From the NCBI GenBank assembly GCA_937958005.1, contig CALGOB010000120.1, positions 1-34,910 of the forward strand: a DNA stretch of 34,910 nucleotides, written 5' to 3'. The notes beneath the pieces are model-generated. The model was not told where the DNA came from, ran no database searches, and saw nothing but the letters and a program-made list of their open reading frames with translations. Below, piece by piece: positions 4,276 to 20,267 of the stretch (its first letter is position 1; every line of letters starts with the position of its first letter). The translations under genes were made by a program, and so were the position numbers. Origin of the DNA: an uncultured Cyclobacteriaceae bacterium. GTDB taxonomy: Bacteria; Bacteroidota; Bacteroidia; Cytophagales; Cyclobacteriaceae.

Positions 4276-4374
4276 AAATGAACCAACCCCGACCCAAGGG
4301 TACGGGGTATCTATGGGCAATAATTTAATGATCGACTCAAGAGTCGGGGAATTAATATCCCTTAGGGGTTAAAG
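4276..4374 (+). repeat. Palindromic repeat family, copy C (direct repeat of 25231-25343)
   Basis: The sequence starts AAATGAACCAACCCCGACCC and ends CCCTTAGGGGTTAAAG. It contains CCGACCCAAGGGTACGGGG, which folds on itself, and the hairpin CGACTCAAGAGTCG. Apart from a 14-nt segment present only in copy D and one substitution near the end, it is identical to 25231-25343. Its last bases supply the stop codon of the neighbouring minus-strand regulator (TTA at 4369-4371). Confidence 0.85.
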
Positions 4375-5139
4375 TATTTTTCCTTCTAGCAACTCCATTC
4401 TCTTCTCTAACCTAAGCAGTTTCTCCTCCACCAATTTAGGTGGGTTTAAGTAGGTTGAATACTTACCTCTAACTAGCCAATACTCCAATACATCAGCGGA
4501 ATCTATATTAACTGCAGGATAATTTGGGTCATCCGACACGAGCTTAATCATTTGCTCATCCAATTTACCCAACCTCCTTATGGTAATCTTCTTCTCAGTC
4601 ACTATCACCAAAATTTGATCAGCACTGATATGCTCGGCATCAGTTTTAGTACATAATAGTAAATCTCCATGATGAAGCCCATGCTGATGATACTCCATTT
4701 CCGAGCCGTTCATTTCAAAAGCCCTCATCACCCCCTTCTCATCCAATGGAACATTAACTTTGTCTAAATTTATCAGAAAGTCCTTATTCCTATGATTAAC
4801 AATGTATTCTACATAGTTTCTCACAGAAACAATAGGCACTCCAGTGCCAATAGGTTTTCTAATAGGATTTTCCTTAATTTTATGCGCTTTATCGAGTCGC
4901 TGATTCAAAACATCTATGTGATACAAATCATTAACCGATAATTCTTTGGTCAACAACACATCAATAGACAAGCCAAAATAATGAGCAATTTGTATCAAAG
5001 TCTCAATTTTAGGCTCTGCTCTTTCTTCTTCATAAGCCCCTACACTAGTCCTAGACAACTTAAATAGGGCAGAAAACTGCTGTTGACTTAATTTCCTTAC
5101 AGACCTTATCTTTTTAATATTTTTACCTATGAAAGACAT
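4369..5139 (-). CDS. XRE-family transcriptional regulator with S24/LexA-like C-terminal domain
   Basis: The 256-aa protein has an N-terminal helix-turn-helix of the Cro/C1 type (about residues 5-65; LSQQQFSALFKLSRTSVGAYE) and a C-terminal domain with the fold of S24 peptidases (about residues 100-225). The Ser position of the Ser-Lys dyad is kept (FEMNGSEME), but the Lys position appears to be Arg (ITIRRLGK, where LexA has VKRL). Self-cleavage is therefore unlikely and the domain probably serves dimerisation or sensing. A short coiled coil closes the protein (LRLEKRMELLEGKIL). It diverges from the PspA block across a 217-bp spacer, which makes it the best candidate for a local regulator, though this is inference from position only. 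A 12-bp all-A/T palindrome (ATTTTTAAAAAT, 5140-5151) sits directly before its start. The stop codon lies inside repeat copy C. Confidence 0.85.
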   Translation of the reverse strand: MSFIGKNIKKIRSVRKLSQQQFSALFKLSRTSVGAYEEERAEPKIETLIQIAHYFGLSIDVLLTKELSVNDLYHIDVLNQRLDKAHKIKENPIRKPIGTGVPIVSVRNYVEYIVNHRNKDFLINLDKVNVPLDEKGVMRAFEMNGSEMEYHQHGLHHGDLLLCTKTDAEHISADQILVIVTEKKITIRRLGKLDEQMIKLVSDDPNYPAVNIDSADVLEYWLVRGKYSTYLNPPKLVEEKLLRLEKRMELLEGKIL

Positions 5140-5356
5140 ATTTTTAAAAATTTATGCTAATTTTATGAGCAAATCCAAAACCATTGTCATTAATCTTCCG
5201 TAAACATAATTGTAACAAAATGAAAAGAATAACAAAAAGAATGAAAATTAACAGTAAACCCCCATAATAATTGAAATAAACCCCACGGTCAAAAACAGAA
5301 TTTTATAAATTACAAAAAATCAACAAATAAAAATTTACCTAACTGAATTACACACT
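5140..5356. promoter_or_regulatory. Divergent regulatory region between the XRE/S24 gene and the PspA block
   Basis: This 217-bp, strongly A/T-rich spacer must carry the promoters of the minus-strand regulator and the first gene of the plus-strand block. I see no full match to the Bacteroidota consensus TTG-N19-TAnnTTTG on either strand. Several A-rich runs and the palindrome at 5140-5151 are present. The assignment rests on divergent gene layout, not on a recognised motif. Confidence 0.4.
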
Positions 5357-5749
5357 ATGAATGAGAACTTTCAAAAAGTAAAAAATTATCTTCTTGAATT
5401 AAGTTTCAGTATCATATCTGAAAATGATGAAGATGGGGTGATCGTTGTAGACAAAGAAGATGATGGAATCAAAAACTTAGTACTAGTGGTCGCCGATCCA
5501 TTATTGATTGTAGAACAGTTCATTTTTGAACTAAACAATCCAACATCAGAAGTTTACAAAAACCTACTGCAATTTAATAGAGATTTTATCCATGGAGCAT
5601 TTGTCCTAGATGAAACAGGTAAAAAAGTAATTTTCAAAAATACTCACGAATTAGAGAACCTAGATCTCAACGAAATTGAAGCAACTTTTAATTCTTTGGC
5701 AGTACTACTCAGTGAGCATTCTCAAGAATTAATAGATTTTTCTAAATAA
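5357..5749 (+). CDS. DUF2170 (YjfI)/YbjN-like small soluble protein
   Basis: This 130-aa acidic protein has no signal peptide or membrane segment. Its pattern resembles E. coli YjfI (DUF2170) and the YbjN/type III chaperone-like fold: an N-terminal helix, a hydrophobic strand pair (GIKNLVLVVADPLLIVEQFIFEL), a middle FNRDFIHGAFVLDE stretch and a final acidic helix ending SQELIDFSK. In E. coli, yjfI directly precedes the PspA paralogue yjfJ, and here the gene lies 28 bp before pspA, which supports the match. Biochemical function is unknown; proteins of this fold are often called chaperones on structural grounds only. ATG 5357 is the first in-frame start and opens the operon. Exact family assignment would need a profile search. 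Confidence 0.75.
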   Translation: MNENFQKVKNYLLELSFSIISENDEDGVIVVDKEDDGIKNLVLVVADPLLIVEQFIFELNNPTSEVYKNLLQFNRDFIHGAFVLDETGKKVIFKNTHELENLDLNEIEATFNSLAVLLSEHSQELIDFSK

Positions 5750-5777
5750 GGTATTAATTAAATAAAACATCGATAAA

Positions 5778-6494
5778 ATGAACGTATTTAAAAGATTATT
5801 CAAAATGGGTGAAGCAGAAGCTCACTCAGCTATAGATAAATTAGAAGATCCTATCAAATTAACAGAACAAGGCATCCGTGATTTGAAAAAAGACTTAGAT
5901 AGTAGCTTAAAAGCTTTAGCAGAAGTAAAAGCAATGGGTATCAGATCTAAGAATGATTTCCAAACACACAAAAACAAAGCAACTGATTACGAAAGTAAAG
6001 CGATGTTGATCTTGAAAAAAGCTGAGTCAGGAGATATTTCGGTTGATGAGGCAGACAGATTAGCAAGTGAAGCATTGGTAAAGAAAGAAGAATCTTTACA
6101 ACATATGAACAGGGCAAAAGCTGAACAAGACAGGTTTGATAAAAATGTAGCACAGTTAGATTTAAGTGTTAAAAAAATCAAAACGAATATCAGTAAGTAT
6201 GAAAACGAACTTAAAACTCTTAAAGCGAGAGTAAGGGTAAGTGAAACTACTAAAAAACTCAATAAGCAAATGGCACAAATTGATTCTTCAGGAACTGTCT
6301 CTATGTTAGAAAGAATGAAGGAAAAAGTAGCACAAGACGAAGCATTAGCTGAAGCTTATGGGGACATTGCAAATGAAAACAGAAGTCTTGACGATGAGAT
6401 AGACAGCGTAATTGGCTCAAGCGAAGCTGAAGGAAAAGCGGCTACAGATTTAGCTGCCCTTAAAGCAAAGCTTGGAATGAATAAAGAAGGTTAA
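5778..6494 (+). CDS. pspA: PspA/IM30 family envelope-stress protein
   Basis: The 238-aa protein is nearly all helical coiled coil, as in PspA, Vipp1/IM30 and E. coli YjfJ. It starts with an amphipathic, membrane-binding type helix (MNVFKRLFKMGEAEAHSAIDKLEDP), followed by the typical QGIRDLKKDLDSSLKALAEVKA helix, the long hairpin and a C-terminal segment (AYGDIANENRSLDDEID). Length is usual for the family (220-250 aa). PspA proteins are members of the ESCRT-III superfamily; they assemble into rings and rods on stressed inner membranes and limit ion leakage. No PspB, PspC or PspF homologue is visible nearby, so control differs from the E. coli psp regulon. The gene sits between the YjfI-like gene and the YqiJ-like gene, which places it within a YjfJ-type rather than a classical psp context. 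Confidence 0.93.
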   Translation: MNVFKRLFKMGEAEAHSAIDKLEDPIKLTEQGIRDLKKDLDSSLKALAEVKAMGIRSKNDFQTHKNKATDYESKAMLILKKAESGDISVDEADRLASEALVKKEESLQHMNRAKAEQDRFDKNVAQLDLSVKKIKTNISKYENELKTLKARVRVSETTKKLNKQMAQIDSSGTVSMLERMKEKVAQDEALAEAYGDIANENRSLDDEIDSVIGSSEAEGKAATDLAALKAKLGMNKEG

Positions 6495-6500
6495 TAGAAA

Positions 6501-6522
6501 GTGGGGAGGCCAACTTCCCCAC
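6501..6522 (+). terminator. GC-rich hairpin after pspA
   Basis: GTGGGGA (6501-6507) pairs with TCCCCAC (6516-6522) across a 8-nt loop, six bases after the pspA stop. There is no T run behind it, so it may be a weak terminator or an mRNA-stabilising 3' stem rather than a strong stop signal. Confidence 0.5.
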
Positions 6523-6536
6523 CCTATTAAACCAAT

Positions 6537-6674
6537 AAGTGATCTCAATATAAAGGTGAGAGAAGAAGTTTAACGAAACAATATCAACTCATAAATTAGT
6601 AATGTCAACCGATTACTGTTTCGTTAAGATCTTCCTTCAATCAAACACACACCTTAAGGGTTTTGAGATCACTT
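6537..6674. other. Nested inverted-repeat element between pspA and the yqiJ-like gene
   Basis: Complementary arms are nested in order. AAGTGATCTCAA (6537-6548) pairs with TTGAGATCACTT (6663-6674); AAGGTG (6553-6558) with CACCTT (6650-6655); TTAACGAAACA (6570-6580) with TGTTTCGTTAA (6617-6627); and an inner AGTAAT/ATTACT hairpin lies at 6598-6617. All arms are perfect matches. The result is a rod-like structure of about 138 nt with internal loops. The perfect 12-bp ends would also fit a small terminal-inverted-repeat element. Confidence 0.75.
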
Positions 6675-6721
6675 TTTAAACTTGACAAAACTTAACAAAC
6701 TCACTTTAACAAAAACCACTC

Positions 6722-7387
6722 ATGCAAGAACTTTTTGATCACTCCTTTTCTTTGATCAATGTGATTCCCACATTTCTCTTGTTTTTTTCTCTAGTATACT
6801 GGGTAATTGTAATGATTGGGGCTATCGATACAGATTTTTTAGATGTGGATATTGATTTGGATATGGATGCCGATATAGACATGGATGTAGACCTAGACGT
6901 GGATGCTGATGTGCCTGAAGGAGCCAGTATAGGATGGTTCAATTCTGTATTAACTTTCTTTAATCTGGGGCAAATACCACTGATGATCTTCATCACCTTT
7001 CTTGCATTGCCCATGTGGTTCATAGCCATTGTAGGGAATTACTATCTAGGAGTGAGTAACTTTATAATTGCCCTCCTACTGTTAATCCCCAATTTTATAG
7101 TGAGTCTATTTTTAGCAAAATTCGCCACTATGCCTTTTGTGAAGCTTTTTACAAGACTTAAAAAAGAAGGGACTAGCAATCAATCGCTTACTGGTAAAAT
7201 TTGCAAAGTCATTTTAGTTGCATCAGATAGTCGATTAGGTCAAGCAGAAATAAATGAAGATGGCACCTCTTATTTAATTAGTACTAAAACAACAAATGGG
7301 CTGATCATTAAAAAAGGAGAGACCGCTTTAGTTATTGATTTTAATAAAGAAAGTAATGTTTATCATATTGAACCTTATCAAGTTTAA
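6722..7387 (+). CDS. YqiJ-like membrane protein with C-terminal OB-fold (NfeD-related) and Asp-rich segment
   Basis: This 221-aa membrane protein has a first hydrophobic segment (about residues 10-35), an unusual acidic stretch with Asp at almost every second position (about residues 37-64: DVDIDLDMDADIDMDVD...), two further transmembrane segments (about 84-140) and a C-terminal beta-rich domain (about 155-221; LTGKICKVILVASDSRLGQAE) like the OB fold of NfeD and YqiJ. E. coli yqiJ is immediately followed by the flotillin gene yqiK, and here the gene is followed 9 bp later by an SPFH gene and then the large flotillin. NfeD/YqiJ proteins are thought to partner flotillins at membrane microdomains. 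The alternating Asp segment is not something I know from YqiJ itself and could bind divalent cations. Confidence 0.8.
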   Translation: MQELFDHSFSLINVIPTFLLFFSLVYWVIVMIGAIDTDFLDVDIDLDMDADIDMDVDLDVDADVPEGASIGWFNSVLTFFNLGQIPLMIFITFLALPMWFIAIVGNYYLGVSNFIIALLLLIPNFIVSLFLAKFATMPFVKLFTRLKKEGTSNQSLTGKICKVILVASDSRLGQAEINEDGTSYLISTKTTNGLIIKKGETALVIDFNKESNVYHIEPYQV

Positions 7388-7396
7388 TATTAAATC

Positions 7397-7894
7397 ATGA
7401 TAGAACTCCCTGTCTTATTAGTTGTGCTCATCATCCTAATTACTATTTTTAGTTTTTTACTATTAGTAATAAAATACTATAAAAAACCGATAGAGGGTGA
7501 AGCTCTGATAATAGCAAGCCCTTTCTCATCTAGAGTATCACTTAGTGGAACATTCGTTATGCCTCTATTTGAAGAGTTAGAAAAAATAGATTTAACAATA
7601 AAACCTATTCAAGTAAAATCAATAAACGATTCCCAGTTGTTAACTAAAGATCATGTTAATTTTGACATAGAAGCAACTTTCTATTTAAAGATCAATCATA
7701 CTTTAGAAGATATTAAAATAGCCTCTTCAGCTATTGGGAGTATAAATACATTTAACAATGAAAAAGTAAAATCTTTCTTTAAAAATCGATTAATCGAAAG
7801 CCTTAAAGTATCAGTGAATCGAATTAGTTTTTTCAACAACTTTAATCCAGAGTCTAAAGACCAATTCAAGGAAAATAACAATTTAAGTAGGTAG
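7397..7894 (+). CDS. Stand-alone SPFH/Band 7 domain protein, truncated flotillin paralogue
   Basis: This 165-aa protein has one N-terminal membrane helix (about residues 3-28) followed by an SPFH-type domain. It aligns to the first ~160 residues of the next gene product: helix, GEALI, SLSGTFVMPLFEELEKIDLTIK against VSFGGTIVVPVVQKLEVMDITLK, then FNN/FVELYN near the end. It stops where the flotillin continues into the rest of the SPFH domain and its coiled coil. No further homologous sequence is seen in the other frames of the 71-bp gap to the flotillin gene. It is thus a duplicate lacking the oligomerising coiled coil. It may cap, modulate or compete with the full-length flotillin, or be a decaying duplicate; the intact frame and tight spacing favour a retained gene. 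Confidence 0.8.
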   Translation: MIELPVLLVVLIILITIFSFLLLVIKYYKKPIEGEALIIASPFSSRVSLSGTFVMPLFEELEKIDLTIKPIQVKSINDSQLLTKDHVNFDIEATFYLKINHTLEDIKIASSAIGSINTFNNEKVKSFFKNRLIESLKVSVNRISFFNNFNPESKDQFKENNNLSR

Positions 7895-7965
7895 GTATTA
7901 TATTTTCAAATTCATTTACTTAACAAAAATAAAACTTTCAATATTCTAAAACTAAAAAACAAACT

Positions 7966-10140
7966 ATGTTAGAAAACTCAATACTATTTATAATTCTTGT
8001 AGTAGTCGCAATTGTAATTGCAATGCTTGTTTTCATCGCTAAGCTCTACAGGAAGGCTAAGCAAGGGGAAGCTTTGGTAGTCACAGGAATGGTTAAAGGT
8101 GATAAAGGTGTACGTGTTTCTTTTGGTGGAACCATTGTAGTACCAGTAGTCCAAAAATTAGAAGTTATGGATATCACCCTAAAAACCATCGTAATCTCCA
8201 GAACTGCTGGTGATGGCCTCGTCTGTAAAGACAACATGCGAGCAGATATTAAAGTCACCTTTTTTATCAGGGTAAATCAAACAACTAATGACGTAACACA
8301 AGTAGCCCAGTCCATAGGGTGTCAGAGAGCCTCTCATCAAGAATCATTGGTTAACCTATTCGACGCTAAATTTTCAGAAGCTTTAAAAACAGTTGGAAAA
8401 AGATTTGATTTTGTAGAATTATATAATTCTAGAGATGATTTTAAACAGGAGATCTTAGATACTATAGGAACTGACTTAAATGGTTATGTATTAGATGATT
8501 GTGCAATAGACTACCTAGAGCAAACACCTTTATCTGATATGGATGAAAACAATATCTTGGATGCTGAAGGTATCAAAAAGATCATTGATTTAACATCTGC
8601 ACAAAAGATCCAATCTAATCATATTGAGAAGGAAAAGGAAAAAACGCTTACCAAACAAAATGTAGAAGCAAGAGAAACTGTTTTAGAACTAGAGAAACAG
8701 TTATCTGAAACTGAAGCTAAACAGCACAGAGAAGTTCAGACCATCAAGGCAAGAGAAGAAGCTGAGACAGAGAAAGTAAGAGAAGAAGAAAGGCTTAAAG
8801 CCGAAAAGGCGAAGATTGCCACAGACGAAGAACTGAAAGTAGCTGAAGAAAACAAGGAAAGGGAAATACTGGTAGCACAAAGAAACAAGGAAAGAACGGA
8901 TGCTGTTGAAGTAGAAAGAGTTCAACAGGCACAGTTACTGGAAGCTACTGAAAAAGAGAAGATTGTAGAACTGGCACAAATCGAAAAGTTAAAAGCAGTA
9001 GAAGAAGAAAAACGCAAAATCCAAGATGTCATCAGGGAGCGTGTAGCTATTGAAAAAACAGTAGTGAAAGAAGAAGAACTGATGAAGGATACTAAGGCTT
9101 TTGCTGAGGCAGATAGATTGAAAAAAGTAGCCATAACTGCTGCTGAAAAAGAAGCTGAAGAATCTTTGGTAAAGGAGATTAAAAGTGCAGAAGCCGCGAA
9201 AGAAGCCGCAGAGCATTTAGCTAAGCAAAAAATGATAGATGCGCAGGCAGCAGAAGCAGCCTCTCAACATGAAGCAGAAGCAACTAAAACACTTGCTGAG
9301 GCAAAAGCTGCAGAAGCAGCAGCATTAGGATTGGCAGAAGCGCAAGTGATGGAAGCCAAGGCATCCGCTAGAGAAAAACAAGGAGAGGCAGAGGCTTCTA
9401 TCGTAGAGTCTCAAGCAGAAGCAGAAGCTAAAGGCATCAAAATGAAAGGAGAAGCTCAAGCGGATGCAGACGAGCAAATAGGATTAACGGCAGCTAAGAT
9501 TGATTTAGAAAGAGGGCAATCAGAAGCACAGGTAATCTCTTTAAAAGCAGCCGCAGAAGAAAAGCAAGGACTAGCTGAAGCTAGGGTAATGGCTGAGAAA
9601 TTTGCTGCGGATGCAAAAGGCATAGAGCAAAAAGCGGAAGCCATGCAAAAACTAGACGGTGTGGGACAAGCTCATGAAGAGTTTAAACTGAGATTAGAAC
9701 AAGAGAAGGAGATTGAATTAGCCAGAATTAGTATACAGCGAGAAATAGCCAGTGCTCAAGCTAGTGTAATTTCTGAAGCTTTGAAAGCTGCTAATATAGA
9801 TATCGTAGGCGGAGAAACCATGTTCTTTGATCAAATAGTAGGATCTATTACCAAAGGAAAATCTGTTGATAAGTTAATTGGAAACAGTGAGGTACTGAAC
9901 CAAGTAAAAGACACTTTCTTTAATTCCCCTACTGGCGCCAATTTTAAGGATAGCCTAAAACAATTTGTGGATCAATTTGGAGTAAGTCCTTCTGATCTTA
10001 AGGAACTCAGTATTTCTGTCTTATTACTAAAACTCATGGGACAAGCTGATTCAGGGACAAAGGATGTACTAAGAAACCTGCATAGCGCTGCTGAAGCACT
10101 AGGAATAGGCGATCAAAAAGCTGGTGACCTAGGACTGTAA
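7966..10140 (+). CDS. yqiK: YqiK-type flotillin (SPFH domain plus very long coiled coil)
   Basis: This 724-aa protein has an N-terminal transmembrane helix (about residues 5-27), an SPFH/Band 7 domain (about 28-200; GEALVVTG, VSFGGTIVVPV, IKVTFFIRVNQ, DLNGYVLDDCAIDYLEQTPL) and about 420 residues of Glu/Ala/Lys-rich coiled coil with AEA/EAKA repeats typical of flotillins. A globular C-terminal part follows (about 625-724; IVGGETMFFDQIVGSITKGKSVDKL). E. coli YqiK is about 550 aa, so the coiled coil is long. Flotillins oligomerise on the inner leaflet and organise membrane microdomains. Position after the YqiJ-like gene matches the conserved yqiJK pair. It is followed by an inverted-repeat structure and the AAA ATPase gene. 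Confidence 0.92.
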   Translation: MLENSILFIILVVVAIVIAMLVFIAKLYRKAKQGEALVVTGMVKGDKGVRVSFGGTIVVPVVQKLEVMDITLKTIVISRTAGDGLVCKDNMRADIKVTFFIRVNQTTNDVTQVAQSIGCQRASHQESLVNLFDAKFSEALKTVGKRFDFVELYNSRDDFKQEILDTIGTDLNGYVLDDCAIDYLEQTPLSDMDENNILDAEGIKKIIDLTSAQKIQSNHIEKEKEKTLTKQNVEARETVLELEKQLSETEAKQHREVQTIKAREEAETEKVREEERLKAEKAKIATDEELKVAEENKEREILVAQRNKERTDAVEVERVQQAQLLEATEKEKIVELAQIEKLKAVEEEKRKIQDVIRERVAIEKTVVKEEELMKDTKAFAEADRLKKVAITAAEKEAEESLVKEIKSAEAAKEAAEHLAKQKMIDAQAAEAASQHEAEATKTLAEAKAAEAAALGLAEAQVMEAKASAREKQGEAEASIVESQAEAEAKGIKMKGEAQADADEQIGLTAAKIDLERGQSEAQVISLKAAAEEKQGLAEARVMAEKFAADAKGIEQKAEAMQKLDGVGQAHEEFKLRLEQEKEIELARISIQREIASAQASVISEALKAANIDIVGGETMFFDQIVGSITKGKSVDKLIGNSEVLNQVKDTFFNSPTGANFKDSLKQFVDQFGVSPSDLKELSISVLLLKLMGQADSGTKDVLRNLHSAAEALGIGDQKAGDLGL

Positions 10141-10158
10141 AATAGATTTTAGATACTA

Positions 10159-10242
10159 GATATTAGACTTTAGACACTATAGTTTAATTAGAAATTGTGC
10201 ATTACTAATTAGCCCAAATCTAGTGTCTATTGTCTAAATATC
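10159..10242. other. Long inverted repeat between flotillin and AAA ATPase genes
   Basis: The left arm GATATTAGACTTTAGACACTA (10159-10179) pairs almost completely with the right arm at 10221-10242 (TAGTGTCTATTGTCTAAATATC). Inner arms TAATTAG (10185-10191) and CTAATTA (10205-10211) extend the stem. The arms contain a short TAGAC/TTTAGAC motif repeated several times. There is no T run, so this is more likely a mobile palindromic element or mRNA-processing structure than a terminator. Confidence 0.7.
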
Positions 10243-10281
10243 TTATAACAAAACTCAATAACTCACTTAAACTACTCTAAC

Positions 10282-10365
10282 ATGCATATTATGATTTTTA
10301 TTGCAATGATCATTATTAAATTATCCTTCACTTTGTTTAGCTGGATAAATGCAATCATCGGTTAA
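10282..10365 (+). CDS. Possible 27-aa hydrophobic microprotein
   Basis: An ATG-to-TAA frame of 27 codons encodes a single hydrophobic helix (MHIMIFIAMIIIKLSFTLFS..., ending NAIIG). It lies between the flotillin and the AAA ATPase, in the same direction. Support is limited to its composition and position: chance frames of this length are common in AT-rich DNA, and hydrophobic products are favoured by T-rich sequence. No ribosome binding site is expected in this group, so its absence is not informative. Confidence 0.3.
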   Translation: MHIMIFIAMIIIKLSFTLFSWINAIIG

Positions 10366-10420
10366 AAGTCACTAAAAACCAGATCATTATTCATATAAAG
10401 CAACCACATAACAATACTAA

Positions 10421-13400: not shown

Positions 13401-15352
13401 CAAGGGCAGCAGCTAATCTATTTTGGAACAAGCACATAGATCCAAGTCAAAAAGAAGTCCTGAATCATCAGCTAAAAGGTGCAGGACTTATTCTAAAAGT
13501 ATTTCCAGACACAAAGGAATTTGAGGGACTTTTACTAGAAATTGAAGAGGTTTTTTCAATTTACATCAGAGATAGCAAATTATTCCCAGAAGATATTATA
13601 TCAAACAGTGCTAGGTATCTTTTTCTAGAAATCAGTAGAGGTGACAAATTCATTATTGATAAAGAAGCAGGTGCACTCTACCAAGCTTTTAATCAAAGCT
13701 TAACTAAAAGTAAAGCAGCAAAAGATTTTAAACACTCAATTAAAGTATTAGAAAATCATACGGAAGAGTCTTTCAAATTGACCAGAAAATGGATCAATGC
13801 TTTTATAGATCAATCAGGTAAAGAAGAATGGCGAGAATATGTAGACGAATGCGCCTTATCTCTACTATTAGGTGACTTCCATGAAAATAGGGTCGTACAC
13901 GTAAGCATGAAACAAATCTTGCCAGATTTCAGAGGCGATCACCCGTTAATAATAGATGGCGCTTATCAGTTTGATTATAATCGATTAACCCAAAAATTGA
14001 AGGATTATCAGACAGAAGGATTACTTAATTACAATACGTTACAGGAACAAAAGAAAACACTTAACCATGATTTCAGTGAAGAACTAAGGTTAGAGAGTTT
14101 TAGACCTAGAATACTTTCATCTTTCGTCAGGAACAAATTGATTGATGAAGTTTATTTACCGCTCATTGGAGCTAACCTTTCTAAACAAATAGGTGCTGCT
14201 GGAGATCAAAAAAGGACTGATTTAAATGGGCTTTTATTACTCATATCCCCGCCAGGTTATGGAAAGACCACTTTGATGGAGTATATTGCTAATAGACTAG
14301 GGATAATTTTTATGAAGATCAATGGTCCGGCTCTTGGACACAGTGTGACTTCTTTAGATCCTGGGGAAGCTCCAAATGCCACGTCAAAAGAAGAACTGGA
14401 AAAGCTTAATCTAGCCTTTGAGATGGGCGATAATGTCATGATTTACTTAGATGACATTCAGCATTGTAATCCAGAATTTTTACAGAAATTCATTTCACTA
14501 TGTGATGCCCAAAGAAAAATAGAAGGTGTCTACAAAGGAAGAAGCAAAACTTATGATTTTAGAGGTAGGAAAGTATGTGTGGTAATGGCTGGTAATCCCT
14601 ACACAGAGAGTGGTGATAAATTCCAAGTACCCGATATGCTTGCCAACAGAGCTGACATTTATAATTTAGGTGACATCATAGGTGATACCGAAGATGTTTT
14701 CAAGCTAAGTTATATTGAGAACTCCCTTACTTCTAACCCAATTCTAAAAAAAGCTGCTGGTAAAAGTCATGATGATGTCCTTAAAATGATCAAAATTGCT
14801 GAAACAGGTAAGCAGGAAGGTATCAGTTTTGAAGCGAATCATTCTACAGACGAATTGAGAGAGTGTATTGAAGTATTAAAAAAGTTATTATCTGTAAGAG
14901 AGATTATCTTTACTGTAAACAAAGAATATATACTTTCTGCTGCACAAGCTGATGAGTTTAGAGTAGAACCCCCTTTTAAATTACAAGGATCTTACAGAGA
15001 TATTAACAAGATCGTAGAAAAAATAGTCCCTGTAATGAACGATGATGAATTACGTACGTTAATAGAATCACACTATCAGAATGAAGCGCAAACTCTCACA
15101 ACTGGTGCAGAAGCTAATATTTTAAAGTTTAAAGAACTGTATGGTACTATTACACCTGATGAAAAACAAAGGTGGGAAGATATATTGAAAGGGTATTTAA
15201 AAGGACAAAAAGCTAAAGGATATGGTGAGAATAACCAAACAGGTTTGGTTATAGAACAAATGGAGTCTATAGCAGACAGTTTAGATGGTATAAAGGATGA
15301 AATTCTTAGAAAAATGAGAGTTTTTAACGTGAACAAAAAAGACAAGAAATGA
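10421..15352 (+). CDS. Giant AAA ATPase of the DUF3686 (so-called DNA repair ATPase) family
   Basis: This 1643-aa cytoplasmic protein has an N-terminal DUF3686-like region (about residues 15-430; TYELLKNRLKQNG, NNCIPWDMVPIGEMFLFGYNV, beta-rich repeats). Long helical and coiled-coil stretches follow (about 430-860), then a middle domain (about 880-1250), a C-terminal AAA module and a tail. Walker A is SPPGYGKTT with Lys near residue 1282. Walker B is MIYLDDIQH with Asp near 1344-1345. A sensor-1-like Asn follows (VVMAGNPYTESGDKF), and ANRADIY could carry an Arg finger. Databases often call this family a DNA repair ATPase, but I know of no direct evidence for that. Its place between a flotillin, PspA and membrane proteins suggests membrane-complex remodelling instead (inference). 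The TGA overlaps the start of the next gene (ATGA), indicating translational coupling. Confidence 0.88.
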   Translation: MAQEDNTLKSKEGVKLETGTYELLKNRLKQNGGSLQDSLEKLNDARKAVFGTIENTVIGTERITTQNNCIPWDMVPIGEMFLFGYNVHMGLKTETELSDVFSIYEYRDREFHEKPLDIIKQKNFLSDFDQLYKYYKNTQFVKFAKFGPFLHMVFRIGKDLEDVKTFKWKIFEGSIEYIDNRSTHEFTYPEQHQFRWKRTTRDDHRDGKHPHISVENKVFVETIRGDLTIKVEDNTDDGLGVYSEPVEQKDQTLADSEVYYTIIGHLIILKIRPYQEDFRYVVYNAKLETAQRIDALAESCILLPDDHGIIFTNGYYLQSGEYKKFETSLDQMVFENRVDSPNGEDYLYIFYNRENGIYLLLNYNIIQQKVENPLICHGYSIFENGEMCLFKADREPKKHHVVQIWQTAFTGPDFQQTEVDDSMISRIGNKEIVRAMAECNEIINLINKEQVFASLYIDLIKLATDVIDSYHWLDKEELFQLKTPLLSVRETASATVEEFEKVTRIKESTKETLKEVFSKTDLIIRKVKKSHFEEINGFVELLNELRSIRGEVVSAKELRYSDLPAIEKNDALLEEYITDTSQKCVRFLLKENSLKPYIDRVVSIGGSIEKISKVKEADHTNDQIDQVSEELKLLIDTVSGLSIDDTTETTRIIDQISNIYADINQVKSALKRKRKSLNAAEGQAEFIAQVKLIDQAVINFLDVSDTPEKADEYLTKLMVQLEELEGKFADFDDFIEKISLKREDIYNAFESRKVTLIEARNKRAATLQQSAERIITSVQSRIGRFKTVTQINGYMASDLMIEKIRKIIEELNEIGDPVKADDLLSKLKTAKEDAVRQLKDRTELYSEGEGLIKFGEYNFSVNNQKLDLTIIPKNGKMYFHLTGTNFYEVIEDQLFNNLEEYWTQELPSESNLIYRAEFLVNAIIHEAGTENIPPLEELYNTDEKTTLDLIRKFMGVRYNEGYLKGVHDHDAYLLLKAVLNIDHVADLLKFPSQSRAAANLFWNKHIDPSQKEVLNHQLKGAGLILKVFPDTKEFEGLLLEIEEVFSIYIRDSKLFPEDIISNSARYLFLEISRGDKFIIDKEAGALYQAFNQSLTKSKAAKDFKHSIKVLENHTEESFKLTRKWINAFIDQSGKEEWREYVDECALSLLLGDFHENRVVHVSMKQILPDFRGDHPLIIDGAYQFDYNRLTQKLKDYQTEGLLNYNTLQEQKKTLNHDFSEELRLESFRPRILSSFVRNKLIDEVYLPLIGANLSKQIGAAGDQKRTDLNGLLLLISPPGYGKTTLMEYIANRLGIIFMKINGPALGHSVTSLDPGEAPNATSKEELEKLNLAFEMGDNVMIYLDDIQHCNPEFLQKFISLCDAQRKIEGVYKGRSKTYDFRGRKVCVVMAGNPYTESGDKFQVPDMLANRADIYNLGDIIGDTEDVFKLSYIENSLTSNPILKKAAGKSHDDVLKMIKIAETGKQEGISFEANHSTDELRECIEVLKKLLSVREIIFTVNKEYILSAAQADEFRVEPPFKLQGSYRDINKIVEKIVPVMNDDELRTLIESHYQNEAQTLTTGAEANILKFKELYGTITPDEKQRWEDILKGYLKGQKAKGYGENNQTGLVIEQMESIADSLDGIKDEILRKMRVFNVNKKDKK

Positions 15353-15519
15353 ATGATTTAGGAAATGTTTTTAAAGGAGCTATAGGTATAATTATATTGT
15401 TTTTTGTTTTGGGCTTCCTCTTTAAGGTATTATTTAAGATTGGCTTGCTATTATTAGTTGGGCTAGGTGTCTTGTACTTGTACAAACAAGTATTTTCCGA
15501 CAATAAAAGGAAATATTAA
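15349..15519 (+). CDS. 56-aa membrane microprotein overlapping the AAA ATPase gene
   Basis: The start codon ATG at 15349 shares four bases (ATGA) with the stop of the AAA ATPase gene, a classic coupling arrangement. The product begins MNDLGNVFKGAIGIIILFF and has about 35 hydrophobic residues forming one long or two short membrane helices (about residues 11-45), then a charged tail YKQVFSDNKRKY. The next gene begins 45 bp later. The overlap, orientation and clean positive-inside tail make it a real gene. I recognise no family. It could anchor or recruit the ATPase to the membrane. Confidence 0.75.
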   Translation: MNDLGNVFKGAIGIIILFFVLGFLFKVLFKIGLLLLVGLGVLYLYKQVFSDNKRKY

Positions 15520-15564
15520 AATAGAAATAAGGTAAATTTGAAAGTAAATATTAACAACAGATAA

Positions 15565-16110
15565 ATGGGCATTTTTAACATATTTGGCAAGAAAAAAGAA
15601 GAACCATCTTACGATCCTAATAATGTAACTGTACATGACTTAGATTTCAATTTTATTATAGAATATGATCTCAAGTCTTGGAAAGTAGAAGAAGTATTTG
15701 AATTTGACTGGGGAAGCAATAATTTCTCAAAAGAATATAAGATAAATTCGGGGGATGAGATTGCTTACCTTCACGTATCAGATGATGGTGGACTTCAATT
15801 AACTCTTACGAAAGAAATTAAAATAAGAAAACTGGATGAAGATTTAGTGGATACCATTGTAAAAACTGAAAAAGCCCTGAATAAGTTACATTGGGAAGGC
15901 GAAAAATACTTTTTAGATTCAGAAAGCACAGGATATTCAAAAGACTTGAGCAAAAGCACTAATGATTGGGAAGAATTAATCTCTTTTGAATATTACAACG
16001 ATGAAGAAACAAAAATAATCTCTATCACACAATGGGACGAAAGGAGTTTTGAGGCCTATGCTGGTATAGTAATCAGTGAGTTTGAGATCTCAAGTATTAT
16101 CCCAGCATAG
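15565..16110 (+). CDS. DUF4178-like soluble protein
   Basis: This 181-aa protein has no signal peptide. It begins with a basic patch (MGIFNIFGKKKEE) followed by a beta-rich domain with the pattern VHDLDFNFIIEYDLKSWKV..EVFEFDWGSNNFSKEY and later AYLHVSDDGGLQL. This resembles DUF4178 (an aromatic W..EY/L motif followed by a beta strand with acidic turn). DUF4178 and the E. coli counterpart DUF2491 (YjfK) occur next to PspA, DUF350 and polyamine-related genes, as here. The final third (about residues 115-181) also looks like beta strands. Function is unknown. The family call is by eye, so an alternative is a DUF2491-related fold. Confidence 0.65.
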   Translation: MGIFNIFGKKKEEPSYDPNNVTVHDLDFNFIIEYDLKSWKVEEVFEFDWGSNNFSKEYKINSGDEIAYLHVSDDGGLQLTLTKEIKIRKLDEDLVDTIVKTEKALNKLHWEGEKYFLDSESTGYSKDLSKSTNDWEELISFEYYNDEETKIISITQWDERSFEAYAGIVISEFEISSIIPA

Positions 16111-16145
16111 TAGTTTGATTTTATTTATATAGCTTTACGCTGAGC

Positions 16146-16541
16146 ATGAAAACATTAAACATTAAAAGAACCAAACAATTATTCGCTTTCAATCAATATG
16201 TCAATCTATTTCTAGATGGGAAATTCTGTGGCAAGCTAGGAAATGGAGATAAGTTATCTTTGAATATTGATGTTAAAAATGCCAGATTGGAAGCTAAAAG
16301 CTGTTTTGGAGACAAGTCTATTCTTATTGAAAGAGACGATGTTTCATTGAGTAGCATTACCATACAATTTGGGGTAAGTGATTTATTGTTTCTTTTATCC
16401 ATGCTTCTCTTCATAGTAGTTGCTACTATGATATTAGGGACAATAGGGTATGTTAATATTAATTTCAGTGCTTTCATCTTTTTATTCAGTGCCTTTTTCA
16501 TCATTAGAAACAGAAAGCAACTTCACATCATCAAAAAATAA
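16146..16541 (+). CDS. Uncharacterised protein with beta domain and two C-terminal membrane helices
   Basis: I do not recognise this 131-aa protein. Residues about 1-70 look like a small cytoplasmic beta-sandwich (FNQYVNLFLDGKFCGKLGNGDKLSLNID) that recalls PEGA-like domains in having a short strand, Asp-Gly turn, strand. Two hydrophobic helices follow (about 77-98 and 103-121), then a basic tail (RNRKQLHIIKK). It begins 35 bp after the DUF4178-like gene and ends 5 bp before the lipoprotein gene, so it is surely cotranscribed with them. Confidence 0.75.
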   Translation: MKTLNIKRTKQLFAFNQYVNLFLDGKFCGKLGNGDKLSLNIDVKNARLEAKSCFGDKSILIERDDVSLSSITIQFGVSDLLFLLSMLLFIVVATMILGTIGYVNINFSAFIFLFSAFFIIRNRKQLHIIKK

Positions 16542-16546
16542 GCAAA

Positions 16547-17272
16547 ATGAAAAAAATACAATTGCTTTATATCATTTTCGCAGGAATTATGTTAGCGTCT
16601 TGCGGTAGTGATAAAAATTTAAAAAATCCAGTAGATGACATGGTCAGGGATATGCCTACTGATCGTGTCTTTTCCATCATATTAAATGATATGGATGTCC
16701 AAGGAAGTTTTTTCACACATTATTATCATCAATACAAAATCATAGAAGAAAAGGAAAAAGGGAAGCCAGAAGAAAGAATCACTAAGTTTGTCGAAGTGAA
16801 AGAATCCTATTTTAAGATGCACGCCAATGACATGGGAATGGAGATCGTCTCAAGAGGTGAGGATGGAAAATTATCTAAAAGCACTAGTCCTCCGGGTTAC
16901 AACAATTACGTTGGTAATGAAAGATATGGTAGATGGACTCAACGAAATGGAACTAGTTTTTGGGAATTCTATGGTCAATATGCTTTTATGAGTAGCATGT
17001 TTAGAATGGCCACTTACCCAGTAACAATGTCATACTATACAGACTGGAGGAGTAACTATTATGGAACTGGTAGAAGTTACTATGGCCCTACTACTGGTGG
17101 TAGAAGTTATTACGGTACAGGAAGTGCCTATACTAGATCTTCTTCACCCAACTCATCTTGGAGTAACAATACTTCAAGATTTAAGCAACGTGTTCAAAAT
17201 AGAACATCTAGATCAAGCTCTAGATATAGTGGCTCTAGCTCCAGGTCTCGCGGTGGCGGGTTTGGAAAATAA
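16547..17272 (+). CDS. Lipoprotein with Ser/Gly/Tyr/Arg-rich tail, possibly a DUF1190 counterpart
   Basis: This 241-aa protein has a type II signal peptide with lipobox LASC and the acylated Cys at residue 19. The mature part is charged (residues about 25-120) and then becomes low-complexity: YYGTGRSYYGPTTGGRSYYG, then Ser/Asn-rich, ending SSRSRGGGFGK. E. coli YjfM and YgiB (DUF1190) also end in a Ser-rich tail with an RGGFG motif and sit beside DUF350 and polyamine-related genes, so this may be the Bacteroidota counterpart; the similarity is in tail composition and context only. It would be anchored in the inner or outer membrane and face the periplasm or surface. Confidence 0.8.
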   Translation: MKKIQLLYIIFAGIMLASCGSDKNLKNPVDDMVRDMPTDRVFSIILNDMDVQGSFFTHYYHQYKIIEEKEKGKPEERITKFVEVKESYFKMHANDMGMEIVSRGEDGKLSKSTSPPGYNNYVGNERYGRWTQRNGTSFWEFYGQYAFMSSMFRMATYPVTMSYYTDWRSNYYGTGRSYYGPTTGGRSYYGTGSAYTRSSSPNSSWSNNTSRFKQRVQNRTSRSSSRYSGSSSRSRGGGFGK

Positions 17273-17303
17273 TAATCTTTACCTGATTTAACCTTACTTT
17301 ATC

Positions 17304-18170
17304 ATGACACTGATCTTTGACGGAATATTAACAACAATAGCTTACTTGACGGCTACTTTCGTCCTATTCTTTATAGGAAAAATTATTTATCAATTGTTTC
17401 ACCCAGCAATTAAGGTAAACTTTCAATTAGTAGAAGAAGACAACTTTGCTTTTGCATTTTCCTATGTAGGATATTATATTGGTTTACTATTAGGAATTGG
17501 AGCTGCTTTAATAGGCGAAGGAGAAGATGATTTAATCTTGAATCTAATGGACATTGGTATCTATGGCTTATTAGCTATTGTTCTATTAAATTTATCTATA
17601 ATTGTCAACGACAAGGTTATCTTTAGAAAATTCAAGATAAAACATGAGCTAATTGTCGATAAAAACATTGGCACTGGAATAGTAGAGGCTGGAAATAGTA
17701 TTGCTACAGGATTAATTATTTTAGGTGCTATACATGGTGATGGTCATGGCGCAGGAGGCCCTATCATCACTGCCATTATCTATTGGATAATAGGACAAAT
17801 AATCATGTTCTTGGTCTCATTAGTATATAATGCAATTACCCCATACGATATTCATGATCACATAGAAAAGAAAAATTCTGCCGTGGCCATTGGATATGCT
17901 GGAGCATTAGTTGCTGTGGCAAACTTGATTCGCTTCTCTTTAATGCATGATTTTGAAAGTTGGGTAATTACCTTGGAAGATGTTGCTATAGATACTGCAA
18001 TTGGTTTAGCCTTATTACCAATCGTAAGATTCTTAGCGGATAAGATTTTATTACCTGGTCAAAAGTTAACTGACGAAATAATCAATCAGGAACACCCAAA
18101 TCATGGTGCTGCACTAGTAGAAGCTTTTGCTTATATAGGAGGTTCTATCTTGATTAGTTGGAGTCTTTAA
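17304..18170 (+). CDS. DUF350 (YjfL-like) polytopic membrane protein
   Basis: This 288-aa protein has about eight hydrophobic segments. Two halves (about residues 1-140 and 141-288) share the DUF350 pattern: a small-residue helix (FAFAFSYVGYYIGLLLG and SAVAIGYAGALVAVANL), a loop with conserved acidic residues, then a helix with E/A-G-N-SIATG or EAFAYIGG. The loop IHGDGHGAGG between halves is His/Gly-rich. E. coli YjfL has the same domain and sits in the operon with the PspA paralogue YjfJ. Function is not established; the internal duplication and small-residue helices suggest a channel or transporter-like scaffold. The next gene starts 7 bp downstream. Confidence 0.85.
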   Translation: MTLIFDGILTTIAYLTATFVLFFIGKIIYQLFHPAIKVNFQLVEEDNFAFAFSYVGYYIGLLLGIGAALIGEGEDDLILNLMDIGIYGLLAIVLLNLSIIVNDKVIFRKFKIKHELIVDKNIGTGIVEAGNSIATGLIILGAIHGDGHGAGGPIITAIIYWIIGQIIMFLVSLVYNAITPYDIHDHIEKKNSAVAIGYAGALVAVANLIRFSLMHDFESWVITLEDVAIDTAIGLALLPIVRFLADKILLPGQKLTDEIINQEHPNHGAALVEAFAYIGGSILISWSL

Positions 18171-18177
18171 GTACTAA

Positions 18178-18714
18178 GTGAATAAGTTGCTTGACAAGTT
18201 TGGCATTGAAATAGAATCAGAGCTAAGTCTGTTAATTGAAAAAAATCAATTTATCAAGATCTTATCAAAACATCTTGATATTGATAAATTTAATCTTTTT
18301 GAAATCTTTTCAAAAAGCAACAACAAATATAAAGGTACAATAGAGGCAAACAATCTCGTGATTAAGAGAAAGAGAAGGCTATTTGGTAGCCGATTTGTTA
18401 TAAAAGCAAAAGGCAGTTTTTCACAAGACGATGACTCTCTCAATATAAAATTTCATGTCACATCGTGGAATTGGTATGTAACAGTTATGTATGTTTTCAT
18501 AGCAATTTTCTATTTTATTGTATTCTTAGTTCTATTTACTAGTATGACGAATAGTAAAATTGAATGGGTTCTTTTTCCTTTAATTCTACTTCATATGTTA
18601 TTAATGATTGGAGGGCCACTTTTGCTATTAAAAAAAGCCACGAAGCTTGGAGAGCAACAATTAAGAACAGATTTGATAGATTTTATTCATACGTCAAAAA
18701 ACCGCTTGACTTAA
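18178..18714 (+). CDS. Uncharacterised two-helix membrane protein (GTG start)
   Basis: This 178-aa protein starts with GTG at 18178, eight bases after the DUF350 stop. The N-terminal half (about residues 1-100) is charged and mixed alpha/beta (LIEKNQFIKILSKHLDID...RRLFGSRFVIKAKG). Two membrane helices follow (about 98-122 and 126-150), then a short cytoplasmic tail. No family is recognised. Its stop (18712-18714) lies 11 bp before the probable start of the spermidine synthase-like gene, consistent with cotranscription. An N-terminal ATG is not available without losing much of the soluble part. Confidence 0.75.
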   Translation: MNKLLDKFGIEIESELSLLIEKNQFIKILSKHLDIDKFNLFEIFSKSNNKYKGTIEANNLVIKRKRRLFGSRFVIKAKGSFSQDDDSLNIKFHVTSWNWYVTVMYVFIAIFYFIVFLVLFTSMTNSKIEWVLFPLILLHMLLMIGGPLLLLKKATKLGEQQLRTDLIDFIHTSKNRLT

Positions 18715-18725
18715 ACAATCATAAA

Positions 18726-20267
18726 TTGAAGGTAAAATCTAACATTCTTAAAATAGCCTTATTTGCTACAGGACTCTCTGGAATAGTTGCTGAGTATGTT
18801 CTCTCAACCTTGGCTACTTATTTCTTAGGGGATTCAGTTTTTCAATGGACGATGATAGTTTCTATCATGCTATTTTCAATGGGTTTAGGAAGCCGATTAA
18901 GCAAATATTTCGAAAACAACCTTCTCCAAAAGTTCATCTATATCGAATTCATTTTGTCTCTGTTAGCGGCATTCGTTTCAGTCATTACCTATCTATCTGC
19001 TGCATTTATTGGGGTTGAAGGATTGGTAATTTATTCGTTGAGTATTCTATTAGGTTTATTGATCGGTATGGAAATTCCCTTAGTTATTAGGATCAATGAT
19101 TCCTACGAAACTTTGAGAGTCAATATTTCCTCCGCAATGGAAAATGACTATTATGGTAGCTTATTGGGCGGAATATTTTTTGCCTTCATTGGACTCCCCT
19201 ACCTTGGTCTTACCTACACTCCTTTTATATTGGGGTCGGTCAATTTAATAGTTGCCATCTCATTATTCGTCTTACTAAAAGAAGAAGTAGAAATTAAAGT
19301 AAGGAAAAAGTTGATCGCTTTCTCAGTAGCTTCAAGCTTGGGCATTCTGATAGGACTACTATTTGCCGATAAAGCAATTGATTTTGGTGAAACTGAGCGA
19401 TATGCAGATAAGGTGATTTACACCAAACAAACGCCCTATCAGAGAATCTCAATCACTCAATCTAAAGGTGACTTCTGGCTATTTATCAATGGGAATCAGC
19501 AACTAAGTACCATAGATGAAGTAATGTATCATGAACCACTTGTGCATCCGGTAATGGCAATACTGAAAGAGCCTACCTCTGTATTAGTGCTTGGAGGTGG
19601 GGATGGTGGAGCAGTAAGAGAAATATTAAAATATCCATCTGTTCAAAAGATTACGCTAGTTGATTTAGACCCTGCAATGACTAAACTAGGGCAAGATTAT
19701 CCCTTGCTAGTTGAGATGAATCAAAATGCCATGAATCATAAAAAATTGACCATAATCAATACAGATGGTTATAATTTTCTAGAAGATACTAAGGAGTATT
19801 TTGATGCCATCATCATAGACTTGCCAGACCCTAAATCAGTAGAATTAGGTCGATTATACTCCTATGAATTCTATAAGTTATGTTATAAACAGCTTAGACC
19901 AAATGGCACTTTAATTACTCAAGCAGGCAGTCCTTATTATGCAGCTAGGGCATTTAATTGCATTGATAAAACCATGCAGGCAAGTGGTTTCACAACTCTT
20001 CCATTACACAATCAAGTAATTACCTTAGGGGAATGGGGCTGGGTTATGGGCGCAAAAAGCATCACCAAAGCACATCTTAAACAAATGGTTCAAAATTGTA
20101 ATATTTCTAAGGTAGAAACAAGATGGATGAATCAAGAATCGCTGACCCTGATCACTTCATTTGGTGAAAACTCCTTCCCTAATCAGACTGATTCTGTAGA
20201 AATCAACAAAATTCACAATCCCGTACTGTATAAATATTATCTTAATGGCAACTGGGATATTTATTGA
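18726..20267 (+). CDS. speE: Membrane-anchored polyamine aminopropyltransferase (spermidine synthase-like)
   Basis: The start is taken as TTG 18726, 11 bp after the upstream stop; an ATG at 18564 would add 54 residues that only translate the upstream gene in another frame. The 513-aa product has about seven membrane helices (residues about 5-215) and then a spermidine synthase domain. Visible motifs are the YHEPLVHP stretch, the nucleotide-binding glycine motif LVLGGGDGGAVREIL, the acidic VDLDP strand end, and IIDLPDPKSVELGRLYS, in which the catalytic DxxDP-type aspartates are kept. SpeE enzymes move an aminopropyl group from decarboxylated S-adenosylmethionine to a diamine. The tail ends YLNGNWDIY. 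Fusion to a membrane domain is known in DUF350-linked members. As the last gene of the block it suggests polyamine production or modification at the membrane. Confidence 0.87.
   Translation: MKVKSNILKIALFATGLSGIVAEYVLSTLATYFLGDSVFQWTMIVSIMLFSMGLGSRLSKYFENNLLQKFIYIEFILSLLAAFVSVITYLSAAFIGVEGLVIYSLSILLGLLIGMEIPLVIRINDSYETLRVNISSAMENDYYGSLLGGIFFAFIGLPYLGLTYTPFILGSVNLIVAISLFVLLKEEVEIKVRKKLIAFSVASSLGILIGLLFADKAIDFGETERYADKVIYTKQTPYQRISITQSKGDFWLFINGNQQLSTIDEVMYHEPLVHPVMAILKEPTSVLVLGGGDGGAVREILKYPSVQKITLVDLDPAMTKLGQDYPLLVEMNQNAMNHKKLTIINTDGYNFLEDTKEYFDAIIIDLPDPKSVELGRLYSYEFYKLCYKQLRPNGTLITQAGSPYYAARAFNCIDKTMQASGFTTLPLHNQVITLGEWGWVMGAKSITKAHLKQMVQNCNISKVETRWMNQESLTLITSFGENSFPNQTDSVEINKIHNPVLYKYYLNGNWDIY

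Follow-up and report, generated by a model that had tools for sequence, protein, structure and literature searches.

We analyzed a 34,910-nt stretch of DNA (the window), i.e., contig 120 (CALGOB010000120.1) of the 5.49-Mb, 96% complete genome of an uncultured Cyclobacteriaceae bacterium (GCA_937958005.1; G000), which carries a long block of genes combining a PspA/IM30 homolog, a flotillin-like protein, a giant AAA ATPase, and a membrane-embedded polyamine aminopropyltransferase (TM-SpeE). Twelve open reading frames (ORFs) and a further one of 56 codons, all on the + strand between positions 5357 and 20267, were recovered, in agreement with a first-pass annotation made from the sequence alone. 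Pfam (listing threshold E 1) and NCBIfam profile searches of the window proteins named CesT_Tir_1, PspA, Band_7, DUF3686-DUF7902-AAA, DUF4178, DUF350, and the membrane polyamine aminopropyltransferase, which upheld the earlier calls of PspA, DUF350, a DUF3686-type AAA ATPase, and a polyamine enzyme (Table 1). The first gene, previously assigned to DUF2170, had no match to that family at E 1 and is instead a CesT/Tir-like chaperone gene. For the lipoprotein and the 131-aa and 178-aa proteins, no family was found above chance (Pfam for all three, NCBIfam for the first two); the lipoprotein, once described as DUF1190-like, had only a chance-level Pfam match to EAGR_box (0.051), none in NCBIfam, and a poor AlphaFold model (predicted local distance difference test, pLDDT, 52).

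Overall, the block reads as two known gene neighborhoods joined into one. As set out in the main text of Ravi et al. (2024, PMC11237479), group 1 of these PspA systems combines a CesT/Tir-PspA dyad with a transmembrane (TM)-band7-flotillin, a novel AAA+ protein with coiled coil and beta-propeller, and YqiJ/YuaF, group 2 combines CesT/Tir-PspA with DUF4178, the Ctha_1186 lipoprotein, DUF350, and a 7TM-spermine synthase, and group 3, like E. coli yjf, has DUF2491, DUF1190, ATP-grasp, and a potassium channel. In the window, the dyad is followed by YqiJ-like, flotillin, and DUF3686-AAA genes, i.e., the five group 1 families in the same order as in 22 of the 80 named loci introduced below, but unlike in group 1 the block then continues on the same strand with the whole of group 2. 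The DUF4178, lipoprotein, DUF350, and TM-spermine synthase genes match the content of group 2 (the lipoprotein as a putative counterpart of Ctha_1186), with three differences: the group 1 cassette is inserted after pspA, membrane proteins of 56, 131, and 178 aa are added, and the S-adenosylmethionine (AdoMet) decarboxylase gene speD lies within the cluster in several relatives of the window. Among the 13 genes, no Pfam match at E 1 was obtained for DUF1190, DUF2491, ATP-grasp, or DUF2170, and the likeness to yjf drawn in the first-pass annotation thus gives way to group 1 plus group 2. What the window does have in common with E. coli yjfIJKLMC plus yqiJK is a CesT-superfamily and PspA pair, DUF350, and a YqiJ-flotillin pair. 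These are likewise shared with the P. aeruginosa bac operon, a further relative with biofilm and rhamnolipid phenotypes, as far as the consulted portion of PMC10948618 describes them.

Table 1 Features of the block and of its upstream region (positions in the window).
Feature	Position	Strand	Basis
HTHS24 regulator gene, HTH_19 + Peptidase_S24-like	4369..5139	-	Pfam 4.2e-13 and 2.9e-10; divergent from CesT
Candidate operator, palindrome TGCTAA-N5-TGAGCA, 17 bp	5155..5171	.	Gap comparison across loci
CesT/Tir-like chaperone	5357..5749	+	PF22550 4.2e-52
PspA/IM30 homolog	5778..6494	+	PF04012 PspA_IM30 1.5e-39; PspA tree
YqiJ/YuaF-like membrane protein, acidic DxDxD loop	6722..7387	+	Weak YqiJ_N 0.041; recurring position
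Short SPFH/Band-7 protein, 165 aa, one hydrophobic segment	7397..7894	+	Band_7 2.3e-7
Long flotillin-like protein, TM + SPFH + coiled coil	7966..10140	+	NCBIfam FloT 4.1e-9, below cut-off
DUF3686 + DUF7902 + AAA+ ATPase, 1643 aa	10421..15352	+	PF12458 1.1e-182; motor domain model
Probable 56-aa membrane microprotein, start overlapping AAA stop	15349..15519	+	Similar ORFs in L016, L028, L042
DUF4178 protein	15565..16110	+	PF13785 1.1e-16
131-aa protein, two hydrophobic segments	16146..16541	+	No family; no relative found
Lipoprotein, invariant Cys19, Arg/Ser/Gly-rich tail	16547..17272	+	Alignment of 10 sequences; no family match
DUF350 (YjfL-like) membrane protein, two repeats	17304..18170	+	PF03994 1.2e-55, two stretches
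178-aa membrane protein	18178..18714	+	One distant relative, in L133
TM-SpeE, membrane-embedded polyamine aminopropyltransferase, 513 aa	18726..20267	+	PRK03612 above cut-off; active-site motifs; start inferred

Next, we evaluated how these genes are distributed, using the best 80 of 580 confirmed DUF3686-AAA loci (the named loci, a sample that leans to close kin), 39 genomes comprising G000 and relatives, and a wider set of 296 genomes of the class. Within the named loci, a relative of the long flotillin occurs in 72 (some partial at contig ends), CesT in 22, PspA in 23, and TM-SpeE in one, namely L042, a Flammeovirgaceae metagenome-assembled genome whose contig begins inside the AAA gene. 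DUF3686 was detected in 10 of the 39 relatives and TM-SpeE homologs (E up to 0.001) in 17, and gene maps revealed group 1 alone in G010, G013, and G016, the YqiJ-flotillin-AAA triad without dyad in G003, G011, and G028, and group 2 with its own dyad in G004, G010, G011, and G012. Group 2 was partial in G013, G020, and G014 (where the dyad occupies the opposite strand), and the merged form was seen in G000, G001, and G017. When found separately in relatives, the halves preserve their internal gene order. Both key genes, DUF3686 and TM-SpeE, were found in 16 genomes (8 of the relatives and 8 from the wider set, leaving out G035, whose sole TM-SpeE match, E 6.8e-23, sits at a SpeD-SpeE fusion). 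The merged set was seen in 3 of these 16 genomes and in 1 of the 80 named loci, where “not merged” means, for genomes in many contigs, separate contigs or a fetched flank without group 2 genes. Each half is a recurring neighborhood beyond chance, and the joined set is not; the genes being seldom neighbors, which the first-pass annotation named as refuting its reading, was observed for the full set and not for each half. In merged G017 (L015:13471-15726), a DUF5687 gene and a GPP34 (Golgi phosphoprotein 3 family) gene stand between flotillin and AAA. GPP34 binds phosphoinositides in eukaryotes.

The order of genes and the phylogenies provide some indication of how the merge arose. In a PspA tree of 45 rows, the window and G001 are sister to the group 2 PspA of G012 (98/98), and in G012 the microgene directly follows pspA, while in the window and G001 the cassette separates the two; for these reasons, the merged form of the window and G001 looks like a group 2 operon into which the triad was inserted. 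An AAA tree of 31 rows (Shimodaira–Hasegawa-like approximate likelihood ratio test only) places G017, which is merged, with G010, which is not (99), and joins the window to G001 and L042 (99). Resolution is poor in the TM-SpeE tree (25 rows, with 6 of 22 inner branches starred), which likewise fails to group the merged forms. L041 was treated as the locus already represented by L017 and left out of the trees and of the palindrome count presented below, but retained in the 22 CesT-bearing loci, the 80 named loci, and the 45 CesT rows. Because the PspA and AAA trees split the merged forms, at least two changes would be needed, either a pair of gains or one gain plus one loss; besides independent origins, one gain with later splits would also fit. 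A search of 35 chosen genomes returned a single CesT and a single PspA match in each of the three merged genomes, and G010 has two dyads, one per half. For the 13 unmerged genomes with both key genes, CesT matches numbered two in G010, G013, and G091, and one in G003, G011, G028 (weak), G205, G248, G273, G287, and G298.

From these patterns, we lean modestly toward a composite operon, in which a group 2 operon has a YqiJ-flotillin-AAA cassette placed between its pspA and 56-aa genes and one CesT-PspA dyad would serve both halves, giving a regulated system of envelope maintenance that combines PspA/flotillin remodeling with membrane aminopropylation. The shared use of the dyad would follow from the position of the cassette inside the group 2 operon. 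Alternatively, two independent operons with separate jobs may simply abut, their common strand and dyad being an accident of rearrangement. The rarity of the merge, the 131-aa gene without found relatives inside the block, and the extra genes between flotillin and AAA in G017 favor such an accident, whereas the single dyad of merged genomes and a cassette that separates pspA from the remaining group 2 genes, instead of standing next to the group, argue against it. DUF3686 and TM-SpeE also co-occur when apart (9 of 14 vs 24 of 282 genomes, with genome size and kinship uncontrolled), and overall we consider abutting operons unlikely, with some real weight left to them.

The lesser members of the block fit the two halves to different degrees. 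The YqiJ-like and flotillin genes were placed in group 1 by their own profiles and recurring position, Pfam being weak: the YqiJ_N match of the former, a protein with four hydrophobic segments, is under its cut-off, and the long flotillin lacks Band_7 among its Pfam matches at E 1 and reaches 36 bits against FloT, for a cut-off of 700. Considering the short Band-7 gene as mere flotillin debris appears doubtful, since short flotillin-like ORFs adjoin the full-length gene in three other loci (L043, L053, and L094); given its absence from sister locus L016, it may be a local decaying copy. The 56-codon microgene, doubted in the first-pass annotation, is probably real, with similar ORFs at the equivalent junction in L016, L028, and L042, the one in L028 coming after pspA in a group 2 operon without AAA. 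A hydrophobic 52-aa ORF without sequence match occupies this position in L031, and none was seen at the junction in L015, L027, and L034. The 178-aa protein has one distant relative (L133:13930-14460, G273; 29% identity, E 2.7e-19) starting 9 bases after an AAA gene, and may be part of the AAA half. For the 131-aa protein, the fetched loci contained no relative at E 1e-4, and it was rejected as a core member for that reason.

Upstream of the block, an HTH-S24 gene is divergent from CesT in all 22 CesT-bearing named loci; in the other 58, one regulator match was found in the fetched flanks (L065, at 8.7 kb and in another strand orientation). Across all fetched loci, the regulator stands beside 39 of 45 CesT rows, or 40 when counting the short ORF of L114. 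The gaps between the two genes share a palindrome: TGCTAA-N5-TTAGCA was found at ≥10 of 12 matches in 30 of 37 gaps, compared to 0.95 loci on average (maximum 3) in 20 shuffled gap sets, and the mean best score was 10.4 vs 7.9 in shuffles, with p ≤ 0.05 in 28 of 37 gaps. The motif was derived from 16 gaps and then scored across all 37 (L101 and L132 were left out, their gaps being <40 bases), and 16 of the 21 gaps unused in the derivation reach 10/12; many of these gaps are from Flavobacteriaceae and so not independent. Most of the palindromes (23 of 30) begin ≤25 bases from the regulator start codon, and the regulator-proximal site of merged G017 (L131) scores 9. When searched across the 5.49-Mb assembly, TGCTAAN5TKAGCA, a pattern shaped on the window site, had its sole zero-mismatch place at the candidate operator, and 50 matches per strand with one mismatch (17 and 13 for the reversed pattern). 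Several loci have a second palindrome copy following the first, and the two flank a TAnnTTTG-like box, a candidate Bacteroidota -7 element. Examined by eye for the catalytic Ser-Lys dyad, the S24-like domain displays Ser replaced by Glu in the window, L016, L028, and L017, and Lys by Arg or another residue, while L019 retains Ser. Cleavage residues thus seem absent from most members, which suggests a sensor or dimerization domain rather than a self-cleaving one. Taken together, the block is probably switched by this divergent regulator through the 17-bp palindrome; that it does so by repression, and not activation, is a guess.

We next considered which kind of motor drives the AAA protein. Residues 1186-1643 were modeled from 42 sequences (one model, pLDDT 83, predicted template modeling score 0.72), and the ten best VIA-align matches of this model were all CbbQ or NorQ, led by CbbQ 6l1q (Z 18.0, root-mean-square deviation 4.0, 252 aligned) and followed by NorQ and cso-CbbQ (17.1-15.5), with NVL (14.2), dynein (13.8), and Vps4 4d82 (12.4) below. 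The first five Foldseek chains were likewise CbbQ and NorQ, and modeled strands 181-186 and 189-194 were read as a pre-sensor-1 hairpin. The motor domain hence models closest to MoxR-type ATPases of the CbbQ/NorQ kind, above Vps4. Two results run counter to this assignment: Pfam ranks classical AAA (5.5e-7) ahead of AAA_5 (2.7e-5), and Foldseek E-values separate CbbQ/NorQ only slightly from the MCM and RuvB chains that come next. The NCBIfam match of the protein was to RuvB (1.8e-5), and a sequence search of the AAA domain against solved structures gave weak p97 matches and one helical stretch (best E 5.8e-4). MoxR ATPases are usually partnered by VWA proteins. No VWA match was obtained among the operon genes with Pfam, and no search was made for a partner elsewhere in the genome.

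An ESCRT-like scheme, with the AAA protein as a Vps4-type disassembly motor and PspA filaments as its substrate, could draw on the relationship of PspA to ESCRT-III and on the AAA-driven remodeling and ESCRT-like complexes proposed for such operons in the main text of PMC11237479, as well as on the presence of Vps4 among the fold matches and of classical AAA as best Pfam match. However, the gap between the CbbQ/NorQ scores and the best other match (14.2), the putative pre-sensor-1 insert, and the 57 of 80 named loci without PspA in the fetched flanks (some cut by contig ends) argue otherwise, and make this scheme improbable in our view. A MoxR-like motor could nonetheless act on PspA.

The last gene of the block encodes a plausible enzyme. 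TM-SpeE matches Pfam Spermine_synth (E 6.8e-39) and exceeds the PRK03612 equivalog cut-off of NCBIfam (544.9 vs 472 bits), and its start is probably TTG 18726 rather than ATG 18564, as 7 of 13 orthologs begin there and 6 have short extensions. The active-site motifs GGGDG, DExxYHE, and D..PDP are kept in an alignment of 14 orthologs, and the motif regions align to the solved aminopropyltransferases 7xif and 3anx (E 1.6e-42). Across the 296 genomes, SpeD (E up to 1e-60) was found in 31 of 33 genomes with TM-SpeE vs 19 of 263 others (Fisher 1.4e-26, uncorrected for kinship), some matches in both sets being parts of open frames >400 codons; in the 39 relatives, it was found in 12 of 14 genomes with a TM-SpeE ortholog of ≥54% identity and 2 of the other 25. 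SpeD lies ≤5 kb from a TM-SpeE on the same contig in 23 of 33 genomes, a count that takes any TM-SpeE copy and includes G000 via its second copy. It is inside the cluster in 7 of 9 group 2-type loci (L120-L125 and L127; not L126 or L136), most of the nine having been picked because SpeD was near, and the core ESHxA[IL]HT[WF]PE is kept in all six of these sequences that were examined. Because genomes with TM-SpeE have SpeD, often within 5 kb, TM-SpeE probably transfers aminopropyl groups, which lends indirect support to the earlier suggestion that the block makes or attaches polyamines. A synthase without substrate for want of SpeD was rejected, as SpeD is present in the genome.

A comparable pairing is known from P. 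aeruginosa, where an AdoMet decarboxylase and an aminopropyltransferase (speD2-speE2, PA4773-PA4774) are tied to envelope protection through surface polyamines (PMC11107197, as far as consulted); PA4774 has 349 residues, whereas the window TM-SpeE has 513, with a membrane domain, and belongs to a PspA operon. Contig 133 of G000 (L023:8609-13748) carries SpeD, an ion channel, a second TM-SpeE, a 367-aa protein without family, and a FAD amine oxidase, and relatives of the last two stand beside a TM-SpeE in L024, L028, L121, L122, and L125. In L121, L027, and L028, a TM-SpeE with an amine-oxidase relative adjoins the group 2 PspA operon or is one gene away, hinting that an aminopropylated product is oxidized. 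SpeD-SpeE fusions (frames of ~415-456 codons in which the SpeD and SpeE queries match the same place) were also seen in G003, G010, G011, G014, G017, G023, G025, and G035.

Several observations weigh against a composite operon as outlined above. Co-transcription would have to span gaps of 227 bases ahead of the YqiJ gene and 280 ahead of the AAA gene, and 5 of 45 CesT rows (L027, L035, L122, L128, and L129) have no such regulator adjoining. G118 and G222 have both key genes and no CesT match, and at 96% completeness a second dyad in the window genome could escape detection. The SpeD gene of that genome is on contig 133 beside the second TM-SpeE, and not beside the one in the block; SpeD went undetected in G013 (a single contig, 99% complete), G004 (93%), G079, and G111 despite their TM-SpeE; and SpeD homologs can be ornithine or arginine decarboxylases, according to the part of PMC10407285 consulted. 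Finally, few genomes carry the merge, and its gain or loss may have happened on more than one occasion, so that any selection for it would be conjectural.

We also evaluated whether the block could be an anti-phage or mobile defense island. PADLOC matched TM-SpeE to mads_2 (2.6e-18, confined to the synthase part), linked the regulator to several HTH models, and gave weak coiled-coil protein matches for PspA (0.0011 at best). Plasmids also carry relatives of the long flotillin, in 306 of 72,556 records (e.g., NZ_CP010056.1), mostly from Escherichia and Shigella and mostly at <60% identity; 11 records cover ≥80%, the best being a Hymenobacter plasmid (61.7%). These PADLOC matches are confined to generic domains, however, and 6 of the 9 proteins submitted (the regulator and the products of 8 of the 13 genes, i.e., without the AAA, short Band-7, microprotein, 131-aa, and 178-aa proteins) had none, no tRNA gene was found in the window, and the partners that recur belong to an envelope system according to PMC11237479, so that a defense role is very improbable. 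Around the block, a convergent SNF2 helicase gene lies downstream (Pfam), and the left end of the window (368-4132) encodes a large protein with many repeated FNQPLDxWDVSNVT-like units, whose C-terminal end resembles a secretion-sorting tail.

For the composite operon, the mechanism we infer would begin with envelope stress causing the HTH-S24-like regulator to release DNA. The CesT-like chaperone would then pass PspA to the inner membrane, where it would polymerize, while YqiJ and flotillin would build a platform, and the beta-propeller AAA protein, through its MoxR-like motor, would remodel or unload this assembly. TM-SpeE would move aminopropyl from decarboxylated AdoMet, supplied by the SpeD of contig 133, onto a membrane amine, and DUF350 and the lipoprotein would transport, retain, or sense the product, giving the damaged envelope more cationic charge. 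A bolder extension, which we hold to be doubtful, is a dedicated envelope-repair regulon of Bacteroidota with an exchangeable CesT-PspA hub, a non-cleaving regulator of CI/LexA-like type acting through a palindrome of its own, a plug-in MoxR-driven flotillin machine, and a membrane enzyme aminopropylating lipids or lipoproteins; remodeling and recharging would be one response, and the window would have both machines hard-wired.

Parts of this picture have been proposed before. A literature search on the families of the block together returned PMC11237479 only, where both halves are described and such PspA systems are proposed, in section 19, to link stress sensing, membrane dynamics, and polyamines. 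The envelope, microdomain, and polyamine theme of the first-pass annotation is therefore supported and not new, and its claim of an undescribed full set holds only for the rare union of the halves. SpeD is named in section 19 for variants of the third group only, and the main text, which we consulted without its supplements, mentions neither S24, LexA, nor MoxR. The regulator and palindrome, the likeness of the motor to MoxR, and the link between SpeD and group 2 were found neither there nor in the literature searched, in which we found no paper on DUF3686 and nothing related on MoxR together with flotillin; these three elements seem to be new. 

To our knowledge, the signal and the motor of non-classical PspA systems are unknown. 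If our reading is correct, the regulator-operator pair would provide a direct handle on the signal that these systems answer, the MoxR-like motor with its beta-propeller would be a specific candidate ATPase for PspA or flotillin assemblies, and the AdoMet decarboxylase tie would make membrane aminopropylation a concrete, testable chemistry.

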